64,000 nt of DNA, taken from contig NZ_CP060789.1 in assembly GCF_014489575.1 (NCBI RefSeq), positions 1,860,001 through 1,924,000 on the forward strand. The letters run 5' to 3'. Position numbers and translations under genes: made by a program. The DNA is from Tessaracoccus defluvii (GTDB lineage: Bacteria; Actinomycetota; Actinomycetes; Propionibacteriales; Propionibacteriaceae). Under the pieces are notes generated by a model. It worked only from the letters and a program-made list of their open reading frames with translations, had not been told where the DNA came from and ran no database searches. This document shows positions 9,493 to 24,756 of the stretch, in pieces (within the stretch, counting starts at the first letter, position 1; each line of letters begins with the position of its first letter).

Positions 9493-11046
<1,554 letters not shown>

Positions 11047-16469: not shown

Positions 16470-16496
16470 TTAGCACTCAATCAAGCCGAGTGCCAG
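16470..16496. promoter_or_regulatory. CIRCE operator, distal copy
   Basis: TTAGCACTC - N9 - GAGTGCCAG: the left arm is the exact consensus and the right arm has a changed end. Its spacer contains the stop codon of pxpBC (16481-16483), so the operator overlaps the 3' end of the upstream gene. With the proximal copy 46 bases away, HrcA could hold groESL off from two sites; the promoter core probably lies between them. Confidence 0.85.
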
Positions 16497-18013
16497 AACG
16501 CCACCAGTCGGCAGCGGTCACCCGGGCGCAGTTGGGCGGCCCGGTCGGCCGACTCCGCCGTCAGCACGCCGATGACGGGATACCCCCCTGTCGGAGGGTG
16601 GTCGGCGAGGAACAGCACCGGTTCACCCGACGGCGGGAGTTGGACGGCGCCCAGGACGACGCCCTCGCTGGGCAGCTCGCCGCCACGCCTGCCCAGCGCC
16701 GGGCCGGTGAGGCGGACACCCACCCTGTCCACGTCGTTGCCGACCGTCCACGCGGAGCCGGCCAGGCCGTCGGCCCAGTCGGATCGCGGACCGGGCAGGT
16801 AGGCCAGCTCGACCTCCGCGGGGCGGGCGGCGGAATAGGGCACGAACCCGACACCGGGCGTCCACCCGGGAGCCGAGGCCCCGAGGGGCACGCGGTCCCC
16901 CGCTCGCAGCGGCGACGGCCCGATGCCACCGAGGGTGTCGCGGGACCGGGAACCCAGCACCGGCGCGACGTCGACGCCGCCGTGGACGGAGAGGTAGGTC
17001 CGCAGCCCGGCCGGCGGGGCCCCGAGCGTCAGGGTCTCGCCGTCCCCGAGCACGAAGAGCGTCTGGTGGGACACGGGTCTGCCCCCGGCCTCCGCCGGGC
17101 ACGCCGCACCGGTGAGGACGGCGGTGCACGCCCCGTGCGCCCGGAGCGTCGCGCCACCGAGGGTGACCTCCAGCGCCGCCTCGCCCGTCCCGTTGCCGAC
17201 GAGCCGGGCGCCCAGTTCATAGGCGCCGCGGTCGGAGGCGCCGGACGCGCCGACCCCGACGGCGCCGGATCCCGGCCGTCCCCGGTCCTGGACGAGGATC
17301 GGGAAGCGGGTCTCCACGATTTCCAGACCCCGCCCGCCAGCGGGCGCCGCCTCGGCCCGGGCGGCCGACGGCCGCGACCGTAGCGCGTCGACGGCGATGA
17401 ACCGCACCAGCATCCCCGGCCGCAGCAGGGCCGGCGGAGTTCGATCGACGTCGAACAACACTGCGTCGGTGCGTCCGAGCAGGCGCCAGCCACCGGGTGA
17501 CGGGGTCGGGTAGATGCCGCTGAACCCGTCCGCCAGCGCGACGGCACCGGCGGGGACGCGGGTGCGTGGGCTGGCGAGCCGCGGCACCCGGAGCCGCGGG
17601 TCGCCGTCGGCCAGGTAGGCGAAGCCGGGCGCGAACCCGCCGAACCCGACCCGCCAGGGCGTGCCGGTGTGCGCGGCGACGACCTCGGCGACGGTCAGGC
17701 CGGTGAGTCGCGCGACGTCGGCCAGGTCGTCGCCGTCGTAGCGGATGGGGACCACCACCTCCTCCGGAGGAGGGGGCACCGGCGCGTCCGCGGCGTCGGC
17801 GGCAAGCAGCCGCTCGATCGCAGCGGCAAGACCCGGCAGGCCGCGGGCAGTCACGAGGACGGTGCGTGCCGCAGGCACCACATCGGCTACGCCGCCCCAC
17901 TGCGGCAGACCGGATTCGCGCGCGGCATCGAGCCTGGCGGCGGCGGCGAGCGACTCGTCCAGCGTGTCGAACTCGAGGAGCAGCGCCCGCTCCCCGCAGG
18001 GAAGGATCCTCAC
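16481..18013 (-). CDS. 5-oxoprolinase subunits B and C fused (PxpB-PxpC)
   Basis: 510 residues from a GTG that overlaps the pxpA stop as GTGA. Residues about 1-205 are the PxpB/KipI (AHS1) part with [12 protein letters not shown], and about 220-510 the PxpC/KipA (AHS2) part with [24 protein letters not shown] and [13 protein letters not shown]. With PxpA the subunits cleave 5-oxoproline (pyroglutamate) to glutamate using ATP, a metabolite-damage clearance step; older names (KipI/KipA, biotin-dependent carboxylase) come from homology only. B and C are usually separate genes, though fusions are common. Its stop lies inside a CIRCE element, directly upstream of groES. Confidence 0.9.
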
Positions 18014-18768
18014 GCCGCGAACGGGGCGACGGTGACGCCGTCGTCCTCGAGGCGGGCGCGGACGGCGCGGGCCAGGTCGACGGCCCCTGCCGTGTCCCCG
18101 TGCAGGCAGACCGACTCGACCTGCAGCGACACGCGCGTCCCGTCGACGGCGGTCACGGATCCGTCGGTGACCAGCTGCAGCACGCGTTCGGCCACGGCCG
18201 CGGGGTCGGTGATCAGGGCGCCGGGTTCGCCGCGTGGGACGAGGGTGCCGTCGGCGCGGTAGCCGCGGTCGGCGAACCCCTCCCGGACGGCCCGCAAACC
18301 GGCCTCCTCGGCCCGCCGCAGGAACGCCGAGCCGGGGAGCCCCAGGACCGGCAGGGTCGCGTCGTAGGAGATGACGGCGGCGACGACGGCCGCGGCCTGG
18401 GCCTCGTGGTGGACGATCGCGTTGTAGAGGGCGCCGTGCGGCTTGAGGTAGGCAACGCGCCCTCCGACGCTGCGGCAGATGCCGTCGAGGGCGCCGAGCT
18501 GGTAGACGACGTCGGCGGTCAGCTCGGCGGGCGACGCGTCGAGGAATCGGCGCCCGAACCCGGCGAGGTCGCGGTAGCCGACCTGCGCCCCGATGGTCAC
18601 GCCGTGGCCGACGGCGACGCGGCACGTCCCGGTGAGGGTCAGCGGGTCGCCGGCGTGGAAGCCGCAGGCGACGTTCGCGCTGGTGACGACCGCGAGGAGG
18701 GCGTCGTCATCGCCGAGCGGCCAGCGCCCGAAGGACTCGCCGACGTCGGCGTTGAGGTCGATCCGCAT
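18010..18768 (-). CDS. pxpA: 5-oxoprolinase subunit A (LamB/YcsF family)
   Basis: 252 residues, the standard size. Family signatures are [14 protein letters not shown] at the N-terminus, [14 protein letters not shown] (about 29-42), [12 protein letters not shown] and [11 protein letters not shown] (about 108-118). This subunit catalyses ATP-dependent opening of pyroglutamate together with PxpB and PxpC, encoded immediately downstream. The promoter appears leaderless: TAGGCT (18775-18780) lies six bases before the ATG. Upstream of this promoter the DNA passes directly into the middle of a VWA coding sequence on the other strand, marking a breakpoint. Confidence 0.94.
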
Positions 18769-20192: not shown

Positions 20193-20249
20193 TCCCCTGG
20201 GCGCGGCTCGCGACGGCCCCCCACGGCGCCAGGTGTTAGGGTGGCCACG

Positions 20250-20425
20250 CGTCATCGATCGGGGAAGCTGGTGCGATTCCAGCGCTGACCCGCAACCGTG
20301 ACGGCCCCGATGGGCCGGAGCCGGGAAACCGTCCTTGACGCGCGTCCACACATGAATCCGTCGCGGACTACGGAGGGGACCGGGCCTTCGCATGCGTCTC
20401 GGCCTGGACCTGGCAGTCCCGAGAC
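20250..20425 (+). ncRNA. cobalamin (adenosylcobalamin) riboswitch
   Basis: Conserved aptamer blocks are visible: GGGAAGCTGGTGCGATTCC (20262-20280), CTGACCCGCAACCGT (20285-20299) and the B12-box region GGAGCCGGGAAACC (20317-20330). A TAGGGT box at 20237-20242 is a likely -10 for the leader. Just before the Shine-Dalgarno AGAAAGG (20426-20432), GTCTCGG (20396-20402) can pair with CCGAGAC (20419-20425), a candidate expression-platform stem next to the ribosome site, which suggests translational control. It would shut down the following surface protein/ECF operon when B12 is plentiful. Confidence 0.92.
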
Positions 20426-20441
20426 AGAAAGGCATCGATCC

Positions 20442-21190
20442 ATGTCTAACCCCACGGCGCCCCCGGCACGTCCGGCACGCCTCCTCTCTCTCATCCTCCT
20501 GACGCTGCTCGCCTTCGTCGGCCTCGGCGCCTCCCCCGCCATGGCCACCGAAGACAACCCTGTCGGCGCCTGCCTCAGCTCCGACGGGTGTGGCTCCTCG
20601 TCGTCGACGGCGAGGGCACCGCCCTGGCCAACGAGTGCGTCGACGCCCCGACCTCCGGCGAGGACGCCCTCGTCAAGGCGGGCCTGACCCTCGGCTATGC
20701 CGACGGGTTCATCTGCAGCATCGACGGCACCCCCGAGGTCTGCCCCGCGACGTTCGACGGCTCCTACTGGGCCTACTTCCACGGGGCACCCGGCGAGGCC
20801 TACGCCTACTCCGAGGTCGGGGCCGGCGCCTTCACGCCCGCCGGCGGCACCATCGAGGCCTGGTGCTTCGCGACGGCCGAGGCGAAGGAGTGCACCCCGC
20901 CGCAGCTGAACATCCTCATGGGCGGAACCCCGGTGGCGGCGCCGGACGGCCTCACCGCGGTCGACCTCCCGTTCACGGGCGAGACCGCCAGCCCCTCCGC
21001 CTCGCCCAGCGCGTCGGCCACTGAGTCGGCCAGTGCAGAGCCCACCGATGACGGCGCCACCGACCAGGGCTCCGGCACTGTCGTCTGGGCGGTCGTGGGG
21101 GGCCTCGTGGTCGTCGCGGCCGCGGTCGGCGTGGTCGTCTGGCTGCGCAGGCGCGGCTCCGGCGCGCCGAAGGCCACCGGCGGTCGCTGA
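20442..21190 (+). pseudogene. B12-regulated surface protein, transcobalamin-like DUF4430 domain, frameshifted
   Basis: It starts at the ATG after AGAAAGG. A signal peptide (LLSLILLTLLAFVGLGASPAMA) is followed by NPVGACLSSDG; then one G is missing from GGG at 20586-20588, and restoring it continues as VWLLVVDGEG. The roughly 110-residue domain with paired cysteines and YWAYFHGAPGEAYAYSEVGA resembles DUF4430/transcobalamin C-terminal domains that hold cobalamin. It ends with LPFTGE, a Ser/Ala/Pro/Thr-rich linker, a transmembrane helix and a basic tail. Directly behind the B12 riboswitch and ahead of the ECF genes, it probably captures cobalamin or precursors outside the membrane. Ligand binding is inferred. 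Confidence 0.75.
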
Positions 21191-21195
21191 CCGAC

Positions 21196-22359
21196 ATGCC
21201 ACGGCTCATTCCACGGGTGGCGCCGGCCGATCCGCAGGTCCCTGTCGAGGGGCTCGACCGGTCGGTCCGGCTCGTCCACCCGTGGGCCTGGTGGGGCTGG
21301 GCGCTGTGCGCGAGCGCGGCGGTCAGCCTCACCACCAACCCCATCGTGATCGCGCTGGTGGTGGTGTCGGTGGTGGCGGTGGTTCTCCTCCGCCGCTCCG
21401 ACGCGCCCTGGGCGCGGTCGCTCAAGATCTACCTCATCCTCGCACTGGTGATCGTCGGGATGCGGTTGTTCTTCCAGATCACCATCGGCGGCGTCCGGAC
21501 GGGGACCGTGCTGTTCACGCTGCCGTCCGTCGCCCTGCCGGGATGGGCCGCCGGCGTGACCCTCGGCGGCCCCGTGACGTTGGATGCCCTTGCCGTCGCC
21601 CTGTTCGACGCGATCCGACTGGCCGCGATGCTGCTCTGCGTCGGCGCCGCCAACTCGCTCGCCAACCCCCGCACCGCTCTCAAGTCCGTGCCGGCGGCGC
21701 TGCGCGACATCTCGACGGCGGTCGTCATCGCCCTGGCCCTCATCCCGCAGCTCATCGCCTCGATCCACCGCGTCCGCCGTGGGCAGCGGCTCCGGGGCGG
21801 ACGGCGCCGCGGTCTCAGCGCCCTGCCCGGCACGCTGCTTCCCGTCATCGAGGACGCCGTCGAGGGGTCGCTGCAGCTGGCCACCTCGATGGAGGCCCGC
21901 GGCTACGGGCGCACCCGCAGGACCGGGGAGCGCCGCCACGGCACCAGGCAACTGCTGGGCGCGCTGACAGCGATCCTGTTCGGCAGCTACGTCCTTCTCG
22001 CCGTCCCCGGCAGGACGCCGGTGCTGTTGGGCCTGAGCGGCCCGGCATGGCTCGCCGTCTCCCTGCTGCTGATCGGGTTCGGCCTGTCCCTGTGGGGGCT
22101 GCGCGTCTCCGGGGCACAGCTCGGCGTGACCCGCTACCGCCCCTCGCCGTGGGGAGCCCCCGAACACCTGACGGTGGCGTGCGGCGTCGTCGCGCTCGTC
22201 ATCGTATTGTGGCTCATCTCCCCCTACGGCGTGCCCGCCGAGATGAACTCGCAGCAGATCCCCGTCCGCTGGCCCACACTGCCGTGGCCCGCCGTCATCG
22301 CCGCGCTCGCCCTGGCCGTGCCCGGCTTCGCCACCCCCGCCCCCAGGAGGCTCCGTTGA
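21196..22359 (+). CDS. ECF transporter transmembrane component EcfT (predicted cobalamin uptake)
   Basis: 387 residues with about six to seven hydrophobic segments and the two cytosolic coupling motifs of EcfT: SMEARGYG (near residue 235), a true Ala-Arg-Gly signature, and an earlier basic coupling helix around RRGQRLRGGRR. EcfT links the substrate-binding S component to the ATPases in energy-coupling factor transporters for vitamins. It starts six bases after the surface-protein stop and ends within the EcfA start codon, so the operon is tightly coupled. It is longer than most EcfTs (about 260) because of the N-terminal extension and extra C-terminal helices. Confidence 0.85.
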   Translation: MPRLIPRVAPADPQVPVEGLDRSVRLVHPWAWWGWALCASAAVSLTTNPIVIALVVVSVVAVVLLRRSDAPWARSLKIYLILALVIVGMRLFFQITIGGVRTGTVLFTLPSVALPGWAAGVTLGGPVTLDALAVALFDAIRLAAMLLCVGAANSLANPRTALKSVPAALRDISTAVVIALALIPQLIASIHRVRRGQRLRGGRRRGLSALPGTLLPVIEDAVEGSLQLATSMEARGYGRTRRTGERRHGTRQLLGALTAILFGSYVLLAVPGRTPVLLGLSGPAWLAVSLLLIGFGLSLWGLRVSGAQLGVTRYRPSPWGAPEHLTVACGVVALVIVLWLISPYGVPAEMNSQQIPVRWPTLPWPAVIAALALAVPGFATPAPRRLR

Positions 22360-23978
22360 TCGAGTTCGACCGCGTCACCATCACCCCTCCCGACGCGACC
22401 ACGCCGGTGCTGGAGGACGTGACGGGCACCATCCGGGAATCCGACCTGTGCGTCGTGATCGGCCGCACGGGCACCGGCAAGTCGACGCTGCTCGGCGCGA
22501 TCAACGCGCTGGTCCCCGCGACGACGGGCTCGACGCTGTCCGGCGGGGTCCGCGTCGGCGGCGTCGACGTGACCGCACGCCGTCCCCGCGACCTGGCCGA
22601 CGTGATCGGCTTCGTCGGCCAGAATCCGCTGGCCGGTTTCGTGACAGACGTCGTCGAAGACGAGATCGCCTACGGCATGGAGCAGCTGGGGCTCGACCCG
22701 GTGACGATGCGGAAGCGGGTCGAGGAGACACTCGACCTGATGGGCATCGCCGACCTGCGCCGCAGGCCCCTGGTCGAGTTGTCGGGCGGCCAGCAGCAGC
22801 GGGTCGCCATCGCCGCCGTCCTGGCGGCCCAGCCGCGCGTGCTCGTTCTCGACGAGCCCACCTCCGCCCTCGATCCCACCGCGGCCCAGGACGTGCTCGC
22901 CGCCATCACCACGCTCGTGCACGACGTCGGCCTCACCGTGGTGCTGGCCGAGCACCGGCTGGAGCGGGTCATGCACGCCGCCGATTCGGCGATCTGGCTG
23001 CCGGGCGACGGCCGGGCAGTGTTCGGCCCCACCGCCGCGATCCTCGCCGAGGCCGACGTGAAGCCGCCGCTGGCGCAGCTCTCCGACGCGCTCGGCTGGC
23101 CGACGGTGGCCACGAGCGTCCGCGCGGCCCGGCGCAAAGTCGCCGCCGAGGGCCCCCACGTCGTGCTGCCGGACCTACCGCGGGAGTCGGTCTCGTGGCG
23201 GGCTGAGGGGCTGACCTCGGTGCTCAGCGCCACCGACCTGGCCGTCCGCTACGGCGACCTGGTGGCCGTCAACGTCAGCCTCGAACTGCAGGCGGGCACC
23301 ATCGTCGCCCTCATGGGCCGCAACGGCTCCGGCAAGTCGTCCCTGCTGTGGGCGCTGCAGGGCGCCGTGGCCAGCACCGGCACCCTGGCCATCGACGCGG
23401 CCGACCCCCGCACCGTCTCCGACGCCGAGGCCCGCCGCCTCGTCAGCCTCGTCCCCCAGTCCCCCGCCGACCTGCTGTACCTGCCGACCGTGGGGGACGA
23501 ACTGCGCCAGGCCGACACCGAGTCCACCGCCGAGCCGGGAACGACCCGCGCCATCCTGGACCGGCTGGGTGCCGACCTTCCGGACGACCGCAACCCGCGT
23601 GACCTGTCCGAGGGGCAGCGGCTGGCGCTCGTGCTCGCGATCCAGCTCGCGGCGCGCCCCGCCGTCATCTGCCTCGACGAGCCGACGCGGGGGCTGGACT
23701 ATCAGATGAAGTCCGAGCTGACGCGCATCGTCTCGCAGCTCGCGGCCGACGGCGCCTGCGTCGTCATCTCCACCCACGACGTGGAGTTCGCCGCGCAGAC
23801 GACCGAGCGCTGCATCGTGCTGGCGGAGGGCGACATCGTCGCCGACGGGCCGACCCGCACGGTCTGCTGCGCCTCCCCCGCGTTCTCGCCCCAGGTGGCC
23901 AAGGTGTTCCACCCCCACGACGTCCTCACCGTCGCCGAGGTGCGCGACGCGATCACCGTCGGGGCTGCCCGGCCATGA
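22356..23978 (+). CDS. ECF transporter ATPase, EcfA and EcfA' fused
   Basis: 540 residues carrying two ATP-binding cassettes. First half: GRTGTGKST (about 35), LSGGQQQR, LVLDEPTSALDP. Second half: GRNGSGKSS (about 322), the variant signature LSEGQRLA and ICLDEPTRGLD. The start is TTG at 22356, overlapping the EcfT stop; AGGAGG at 22345-22350 with five bases spacing makes this choice secure although TTG is rare. The Q-loops (VGQNPLAGF, VPQSPADLL) fit the ECF subgroup. It powers the EcfT-S complex; fused A-A' pairs are common in actinobacteria. Confidence 0.92.
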   Translation: MIEFDRVTITPPDATTPVLEDVTGTIRESDLCVVIGRTGTGKSTLLGAINALVPATTGSTLSGGVRVGGVDVTARRPRDLADVIGFVGQNPLAGFVTDVVEDEIAYGMEQLGLDPVTMRKRVEETLDLMGIADLRRRPLVELSGGQQQRVAIAAVLAAQPRVLVLDEPTSALDPTAAQDVLAAITTLVHDVGLTVVLAEHRLERVMHAADSAIWLPGDGRAVFGPTAAILAEADVKPPLAQLSDALGWPTVATSVRAARRKVAAEGPHVVLPDLPRESVSWRAEGLTSVLSATDLAVRYGDLVAVNVSLELQAGTIVALMGRNGSGKSSLLWALQGAVASTGTLAIDAADPRTVSDAEARRLVSLVPQSPADLLYLPTVGDELRQADTESTAEPGTTRAILDRLGADLPDDRNPRDLSEGQRLALVLAIQLAARPAVICLDEPTRGLDYQMKSELTRIVSQLAADGACVVISTHDVEFAAQTTERCIVLAEGDIVADGPTRTVCCASPAFSPQVAKVFHPHDVLTVAEVRDAITVGAARP

Positions 23979-24756
23979 ACGCACGCCCCGACCTCACGTC
24001 GACGGCGATGCTGACGCTCGCCGGGGCCGCAGGCCTGCTCGCGTTCGTGTGGCCGCTGATCGTGGCCCCCGCCGCCACCCTGGACGGCAACAGCCAGGCC
24101 CCGTTCGTGTTCGCGCTGCTGCTGCCGGTGATGCTGGGCATCGTCGTCTCCGAACTCAGCCGCGGCACCATCGACGTCAAGTCCCTCGCCATGCTCGGTG
24201 TCCTGTCCGCGCTGGGTGCCCTGTCCCGCCCCCTCGGTGCAGGCACCGCGGGCATCGAGTTCATCTTCGTGCCGCTCATCCTCGGGGGCGGGTCTTCGGC
24301 CCCACCTTCGGATTCCTGCTGGGCAGCACCACCCTGTTCACGTCGGCCGTGCTGACAGGGGGCGTCGGCCCCTGGCTTCCGTACCAGCTCCTGGCTGCCT
24401 CGTTCGTGTCGCTGGGGGCCGGCCTGCTTCCCCGCGCCACGGGCTGGGCGGAGATCGCGCTGCTGAGCTGCTACGGCACCGTGACCGCCTTCCTCTACGG
24501 TGCGCTGGTGGACCTCGCCATGTGGCCGTTCTCGCTCGGCATGGCCACCGACCTCAGCTACGTCGCGGGGGCGCCGATGCTGGAGAACCTGCACCGGTTC
24601 GCCCTGTTCAACCTGGCCACCAGCATGGCGTGGAACCTCGGACGCGCCTTCACGACGGTGCTGACGCTGTGCGTGGTCGGACGGCCCCTGTTGCGGATAC
24701 TGCGCCGCGCGAACCGGCGCGGCACCTTCGCAGAGTGCACCGCCACCGTCCCCTGA
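23975..24756 (+). pseudogene. ECF transporter substrate-specific (S) component, predicted cobalamin, frameshifted
   Basis: The ATG overlaps the EcfA stop (ATGA). About 260 residues and six predicted helices if one G is added to the run at 24284-24288, joining IEFIFVPLILGG to RVFGPTFGFLLGSTTLF; without it the frame ends at 24355. S components bind one vitamin each. The general plan (helices 1-6, short polar loops) is clear, but vitamin specificity cannot be read directly; cobalamin is inferred from the B12 riboswitch and the transcobalamin-like protein in the same operon, as for CbrT-type systems. Homopolymer loss suggests a sequencing error rather than decay. Confidence 0.75.

Follow-up and report, generated by a model that had tools for sequence, protein, structure and literature searches.

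A predicted corrinoid importer of the CbrTUV type with a transcobalamin-like surface domain behind a cobalamin riboswitch of Tessaracoccus defluvii

Cobalamin import by an energy-coupling factor (ECF) transporter has been described for ECF-CbrT of Lactobacillus delbrueckii (6FNP; Santos et al. 2018), the S component of which binds cobalamin and cobinamide and which imports both (PMC5997447; this paper and those below are cited for their passages on the systems compared). We report here on an operon in a 64,000-nucleotide stretch of the Tessaracoccus defluvii genome (hereafter the window; positions 1,860,001-1,924,000 of a genome that is a single contig of 3.86 Mb) which encodes, downstream of a cobalamin riboswitch, a secreted protein together with an ECF transporter whose S component is homologous to CbrT through an intermediate. 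Whereas CbrT of L. delbrueckii uses a group II module common to other S components and belongs to an nrdJ-cbrS-cbrT-pduO cluster (PMC5997447), the window has a dedicated group I module with a fused ATPase, a surface binder and a riboswitch. Plasmid pMF1298-5 of Lactiplantibacillus plantarum MF1298 shares with the window genes for EcfT, a fused two-domain ATPase, an S component and a candidate binder. They are arranged there as EcfT, fused ATPase, S component, lectin-annotated protein and DUF4430 protein, and the ECF genes have been named CbrV, CbrU and CbrT (PMC6722938). The binder genes of the plasmid, one of them annotated as lectin, thus lie downstream of the S gene, whereas in the window the binder gene comes first; the DUF4430 protein of the plasmid matches the Pfam hidden Markov model (HMM) at E 4.4e-16, whereas the window protein stands outside that HMM. 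In BtuFCD cobalamin is likewise caught outside the membrane and then imported at the expense of ATP (PMC5997447), but the binding protein is unrelated and the window has an ECF transporter instead of a BtuC-type permease.

The idea of B12 scavenging by such surface proteins is already in print, since Burroughs et al. (2007) proposed it for bacterial transcobalamin-type SLBB (soluble-ligand-binding beta-grasp) proteins (PMC1796856). As in the systems treated here, these have a secreted beta domain, alone or fused on either side to an alpha/alpha toroid, encoded near CbiO-like ATPase and CbiQ-like genes (PMC1796856). The clade as described there comprises low-GC Gram-positives, planctomycetes and less often euryarchaea, whereas the window system is actinobacterial and stands under a B12 riboswitch, a word that does not occur in their text (PMC1796856). 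It differs further in lying outside the DUF4430 HMM, in its CbrT-like S component, in the B12-biosynthesis genes of its genome and in that our searches found no toroid there. Animal transcobalamin, haptocorrin and intrinsic factor share the beta-domain fold, and some relatives of the window operon share with them the toroid plus beta architecture as well; the window protein differs in having the beta domain alone plus a predicted membrane anchor. In human transcobalamin, the carrier of vitamin B12 in blood, the beta domain by itself binds both cobalamin and cobinamide, and the separate alpha and beta domains assemble on cobalamin binding (PMC5599065), so that a split or half transcobalamin is workable in principle.

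No published actinobacterial version of this system was recognised in the literature searched. As far as these searches show, four points are new: the actinobacterial branch outside the DUF4430 HMM, its consistent riboswitch, the link of its S component to CbrT, and a beta-only form whose genome carries B12-biosynthesis genes. Reportedly, Rodionov et al. 2009 predicted CbrTUV in actinobacteria. We read the operon, with a probability of about 0.8, as encoding a corrinoid importer that is repressed by cobalamin, belongs to the CbrTUV (group I ECF) type and is served by a capture domain tethered at the cell surface. It has the following features.

20222..20351, + strand: cobalamin riboswitch aptamer (RF00174), compact form; covariance-model match and our own model R1
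20352..20441, + strand: leader from the aptamer to the start codon, without terminator-like site; purine-rich AGAAAGG at 20426-20432
20442..21190, + strand: secreted beta-domain protein (transcobalamin-type beta-grasp) with predicted C-terminal membrane anchor; from the relative P0121, the structure model and PDB folds
21196..22359, + strand: EcfT (CbiQ-family transmembrane coupling protein; CbrV-like); PF02361 and BLASTP
22356..23978, + strand: ATPase in which EcfA and EcfA' are fused into a single chain with two ABC domains (CbrU-like); ABC_tran and BLASTP
23975..24756, + strand: ECF S component (CbrT-like); from the relative P0001 with PF12822, and hhalign

The transporter genes are readily recognised. 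EcfT matches PF02361 (CbiQ) with 33.2 bits over a cut-off of 25 and, in BLASTP, the L. plantarum EcfT adjoining CbrT with 41.6 bits; the ATPase contains two ABC_tran stretches (E 2.4e-48) and aligns almost over its full length with the fused ATPase of L. plantarum (199 bits). For the S component the intact database protein P0001 matches PF12822 (33.3 bits over a cut-off of 30.7). The secreted-protein gene is separated from EcfT by 5 nt, and EcfT overlaps EcfAA', and EcfAA' the S gene, by 4 nt each, so the initial annotation of EcfT, a fused EcfAA' and an S component that nearly touch or overlap is borne out. A dedicated EcfT, a two-domain fused ATPase and an S gene (identified via P0001) are thus combined in one operon, which is the group I arrangement. 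The order secreted protein, EcfT, EcfAA', S is common to the ten best-matching loci of the same genus (L021-L030). Between two same-genus relatives, L022 (G011) and the Tessaracoccus bendigoensis locus L080, the S components are identical, and that of an Arachnia metagenome-assembled genome has 71% identity to the C-terminal piece of the window S component.

The operon had been called complete. This holds for its gene content, but the secreted-protein and the S-component genes are each split over two frames, which the initial annotation did not report: the frame changes near 20586-20590 in the former and near 24283-24290 in the latter, each time in a G-rich stretch. Intact copies exist, since two database proteins cover both halves, P0121 (249 aa) with 98-99% identity to the secreted protein and P0001 (260 aa) with 100% identity to the S component, although both may stem from the same organism as the window. 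Two interrupted genes out of four, in a genome in which no toroid partner was found, could also mean that the breaks are real and that the operon is decaying and non-functional in this strain. We regard this as very unlikely in view of the intact proteins and the G-rich break sites; moreover, interruptions also affect a FecCD permease of the same assembly and genes of G008, for whose assembly a completeness of 60 is stated, and this pattern fits long-read indel errors. Assembly errors are therefore the simplest reading of both breaks.

The S component can be tied to CbrT in two steps. In tblastn it matches the S component of pMF1298-5 (E 1e-7), a profile of its family aligns with this L. plantarum CbrT-type protein at E 5.3e-15 in hhalign, and the L. 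plantarum protein in turn matches 6fnp_A, the ECF-CbrT structure, at E 1.8e-9. By way of this intermediate it is homologous to the CbrT family, and as far as sequence can tell it is probably a divergent actinobacterial CbrT and not the S protein of another vitamin; clustering with such S proteins had been named as the outcome that would speak against the proposal, and only weak FolT matches point that way. The suggestion that it defines a distinct cobalamin family is unsupported as stated, for it is a distant homologue of the lactobacillar CbrT, though deeply separated from it in the tree.

For the secreted protein the transcobalamin likeness lies in the fold. The AlphaFold 2 model shows a helix at 12-28, a domain at about 41-165, in which two strands (84-87, 90-94) follow the domain's own helix, where the ligand-contacting hairpin insert of this fold would be expected, and a further helix at 214-238; the terminal helices are presumably a signal peptide and a membrane anchor. 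The PDB folds closest to the domain are cobalamin binders, well above other beta-grasp folds and with the transcobalamin beta domain nearest, at sequence identities of 13-22% to transcobalamin-type chains. The protein had been described as transcobalamin-like (DUF4430), of which the first part stands at fold level and the second does not: PF14478/DUF4430 matches neither the window protein (E<=1; its two halves were scanned separately in the profile searches) nor any of 43 members of the beta family (E<=0.1), and DUF4430 membership by HMM was rejected. The precomputed family of most beta-family proteins is PF28005. Neither phmmer with the secreted protein or the S component nor a profile of the beta family found a relevant PDB sequence.

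Beta-grasp folds are very versatile (PMC1949818, in its treatment of the fold), and a common fold is no proof of function, so the surface protein might be a structural or signalling domain without corrinoid binding. This appears unlikely to us, however, considering that the nearest folds are specifically cobalamin binders, that the beta gene comes first after a B12 riboswitch, and that relatives pair or fuse the beta domain with an alpha/alpha toroid as in transcobalamin.

The riboswitch proposed ahead of the operon is confirmed by cmscan: RF00174, for which the gathering score is 31.5, matches at 20222-20351 (+) with 47.6 bits (E 8.4e-9). It is the sole Rfam match at the gathering threshold within the window and was also recovered in a genome-wide RF00174 search. 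Our model R1, built from 14 Rfam-found copies, finds in the window the known riboswitch only, this copy being one of the 14. No terminator-like site was found between the aptamer and the start codon, so translational control is the likelier mode of switching; the predicted fold of the leader is no more stable than those of shuffled sequences (z 0.36).

Regulation was compared in 80 actinobacterial loci with this S component, the best 80 of at least 574. R1 matched (E<=1e-3, same strand, at most 8.5 kb upstream) in 65 of them, and in 64 of the 67 with at least 5 kb of upstream sequence; having just 5 base pairs, R1 is mainly a sequence profile with rough E-values, and L082 is the locus of the same organism as the training copy L029. 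A check with RF00174 in the genomes of 30 of the 80, which paired contigs by coordinates alone, gave a match at the same place in 25 (E<=1e-3), 13 of them over the cut-off; L098 was left out (otherwise 26 and 14), as its match fits no R1 place and seemingly lies on another contig. A regular-expression scan was dropped after missing at least 12 of 17 loci with an Rfam- or R1-supported riboswitch, a share that is approximate. In the window, L021, L023, L025 and L026 the beta gene follows directly on the riboswitch. A separate set of 59 loci of relatives gave 63 R1 matches, some of them 3' of the S gene.

RF00174 occurs at four places in the genome, three of them over the cut-off, namely ahead of biosynthesis genes, a cobalt ECF set, a ribonucleotide reductase and this operon; none of the four is followed by a BtuFCD-type operon. 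Two further loci encode FecCD permeases, whose neighbours we take, by eye from the translations, to be siderophore-type. The operon is therefore the only riboswitch-linked corrinoid transporter found in the genome. Pfam scans of its pieces gave neither a BtuF-type binding protein nor a FecCD permease. The claim that the operon replaces BtuF/BtuCD agrees with this but is weaker, as a BtuFCD system elsewhere in the genome is possible. The strongest cobalamin riboswitch of the genome (607092-607300, or 16593-16801 of L020; 103.9 bits) precedes the alpha subunit of an NrdE/NrdA-type ribonucleotide reductase.

The CbiQ match of EcfT and the cobalamin riboswitch, which often controls cobalt uptake too, would also be expected of a cobalt importer. 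Yet the S component belongs to PF12822 and is CbrT-like, not CbiM, a transcobalamin-type binder would be unexpected for a metal ion, and a separate CbiM/CbiQ set lies at about 600 kb with a weak riboswitch match of its own (25 bits, below the cut-off). In view of this separate set and of the CbrT-like S component we rejected cobalt transport, to which we give next to no credence.

Many relatives of the operon encode a second secreted protein. Within the 80-locus set a secreted alpha/alpha toroid occurs in 53 loci, the beta domain in 51 and both in 40; the toroid counts were the same with a first profile and with one trimmed to the toroid. Squalene-hopene cyclases stand at the top of the profile matches of the toroid protein (E 6e-32). 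Among 27 members of its family, 13 match PF13243. With the trimmed profile, 11 open reading frames (ORFs) of 10 organisms are fusions of toroid and beta domain, either with the toroid first (L030, L094, L095, L112, L153) or with the beta domain first (L029/L082, L132, L138, L152, L157). The first profile, which included tails, had given 24 ORFs also matching the beta profile; 12 candidates with a weak toroid match alone and the 785-aa ORF of L027 were dropped. When the model of the L112 fusion (585 aa, mean predicted local distance difference test score 77.9) was searched with Foldseek, the 14 best matches were all chains of transcobalamin or intrinsic factor (E 2.7e-9 to 1.1e-7), with transcobalamin in first place. 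Superposition over the whole length of transcobalamin is poor (root-mean-square deviation 18-21 A), so the domains match while their relative placement does not. VIA, run on L112, gave terpene cyclases first, aligned to the toroid; the 50 matches listed comprise terpene cyclases and sugar-acting enzymes and do not name transcobalamin, which is no negative test.

In the window genome, however, two single queries and one profile gave no toroid match, so that the transcobalamin architecture of toroid plus beta domain was not found there. As a control, the L080 query matched in 23 of 60 relatives, many rows covering its C-terminal repeat part alone; rows matching the toroid part occur in at least 8 genomes (G001, G009, G011, G012, G013, G024, G032, G033). 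Of the same-genus loci L021-L030, five (L022, L024, L027, L029, L030) have the toroid within the fetched stretch and five (L021, L023, L025, L026 and L028, the last cut by a contig end) do not. The genome of L025 (G033) carries a toroid gene about 20 kb away, and those of L023 (G028) and L026 (G020) gave no match. The toroid has probably been lost in the window lineage. The notion of a self-contained acquisition machine is weakened by these data, as 53 of the 80 loci also encode a toroid partner and none was found in the window genome.

Several observations weigh against the reading as a corrinoid importer with a capture domain. Searched against PDB sequences, the S-family profile did not find CbrT (6fnp) at E<=10 but weakly FolT (E 0.33-0.77), and the NCBIfam folate S family matches P0001 at E 0.001 with 18.8 bits, far below its cut-off of 60. 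The link to CbrT is hence transitive, and the comparison with CbrT proposed in the initial annotation succeeded through the L. plantarum intermediate but not directly. In a tree of 135 rows the two lactobacillar S proteins stand on a very long branch. The Foldseek E-values of the beta domain are modest (best 3e-3, none <= 0.001), with TM-scores of 0.62-0.64 when normalised by the isolated domain, and no match emerged when the profile of the beta family was compared directly with the DUF4430 protein of L. plantarum, so that this link rests on fold. Three of the 67 loci have neither an Rfam nor an R1 match upstream, 12 of the 25 Rfam matches among the relatives lie below the family cut-off, and Cob genes stand near the S component in 1 of the 80 loci. 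The separated human domains have a lower affinity for cobalamin than the whole protein (PMC5599065), and hosts of SLBB proteins of this type usually lack key enzymes, according to the account of Burroughs et al. (PMC1796856).

By contrast, the window genome encodes cobyric acid synthase, CbiB, precorrin-2 methyltransferase, precorrin-8X methylmutase, corrinoid adenosyltransferase and CobBC; two PF02310 B12-binding domains score over the cut-off. With biosynthesis genes present the need for uptake is not obvious, and the organism is not simply a scavenger. The proposal of B12 acquisition is nevertheless favoured by the riboswitch, the ECF transporter with its own fused ATPase and the transcobalamin-like surface protein.

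The main substrate could also be an incomplete corrinoid or a lower-ligand precursor (cobinamide, alpha-ribazole or dimethylbenzimidazole) instead of complete cobalamin. In the 59-locus set the S component stands near CobU/CobS/CobT homologues in 13 loci (families f2, f3 and f4, same order), f4 has standalone S copies downstream of a riboswitch and CobT/CobU or CobS homologues, and both CbrT (PMC5997447) and the transcobalamin beta domain (PMC5599065) bind cobinamide too. But the single such locus among the 80 and a transcobalamin-like fold, which suggests a whole corrin ring and speaks against free dimethylbenzimidazole for the main system, leave this possible but not likely.

Since half a transcobalamin is workable in principle, we propose that the tethered beta domain captures the corrinoid and hands it to the CbrT-like S component, and that ATP then drives its import. 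At low intracellular cobalamin the riboswitch would leave the operon on. Once exported, the first product would stay anchored to the outside of the membrane through its C-terminal helix, with a flexible linker rich in Ser, Pro and Thr. Its beta-grasp domain may bind cobalamin or cobinamide there and so raise the local concentration at the S component. By analogy with the L. delbrueckii transporter ECF-CbrT, the S component would draw the corrinoid into the membrane, from which it would be released to the cytoplasm with power supplied by EcfT and the fused two-domain ATPase. Many relatives among the actinobacteria would also use a secreted toroid that closes over the corrinoid jointly with the beta domain, either as a separate protein or fused to it; in the window lineage, having presumably lost it, the beta domain would work alone. 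The riboswitch match, the gene content, the predicted beta fold, the homology of the S component to CbrT and the conserved layout are established here; ligand binding and transport by this family, the hand-over and the direction of regulation are predictions from these and from the systems compared.

More tentatively, actinobacteria as a group may run a riboswitch-controlled split transcobalamin, in which cobalamin is enclosed in trans between a secreted toroid and a tethered beta domain, both of which dock on a dedicated CbrT-type ECF importer. The window lineage would then be reduced to one membrane-tethered beta domain, from which the corrinoid goes directly to the S component; we hold this to be a serious possibility, though not the probable one. 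If true, no simpler extracellular B12 receptor than the window form would be known, and this form could serve as a working model for an ancestral half of animal transcobalamin. As a candidate system by which Gram-positive actinobacteria capture B12, the operon is concrete, compact and genetically coherent. The architecture of animal transcobalamin is tied to a bacterial importer by the order of the genes, by their regulation and by naturally occurring fusions. A surface-tethered half-transcobalamin next to a B12-type importer suggests a simple, testable relay for extracellular capture: should the beta domain alone suffice, it would show how half of transcobalamin can work, and should the relatives need both halves, they would be a natural counterpart of the in-trans closure by separately made human domains.

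Some minor observations concern the related loci. On pMF1298-5 (L165) the protein at 9578-10630, annotated as 'fucose-binding lectin II', is encoded between the CbrT-type S and the DUF4430 genes. It gave no Pfam match at E<=0.1 and may belong to the capture complex as a component that has escaped recognition. Several same-genus genomes have a second riboswitch match just 3' of the S gene (L036 8916-9033, L046 7045-7154, L051 7054-7171 and others), and in L036 this match stands directly ahead of another beta-domain protein with leucine-rich repeats. In six f4 loci (L055, L053, L058, L061, L066, L071) a strong cobalamin riboswitch is followed after about 2.5-3 kb by a second S copy that has no EcfT/EcfA match close to it; five of the six, all but L071, also hold CobT/CobU or CobS homologues. 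These six copies form one well-supported clade and may serve another corrinoid precursor.

Upstream of the operon in the window, we take the region 16481-18768 (-), by eye, to be an allophanate/5-oxoprolinase-type set including a LamB/YcsF-like protein; its 714-aa ORF seems to start in another frame and is perhaps a further interrupted gene of the assembly. Lastly, a distant paralogue of the S component (30-38% identity) occurs in seven same-genus genomes (among them L078 of G033, L079 of G011 and L029 at 16679-17563). In L078 and L079 a riboswitch match lies several kb from it, and the genes near the L029 copy are, judged by eye from their translations, presumably MoxR/DUF58/VWA-like.

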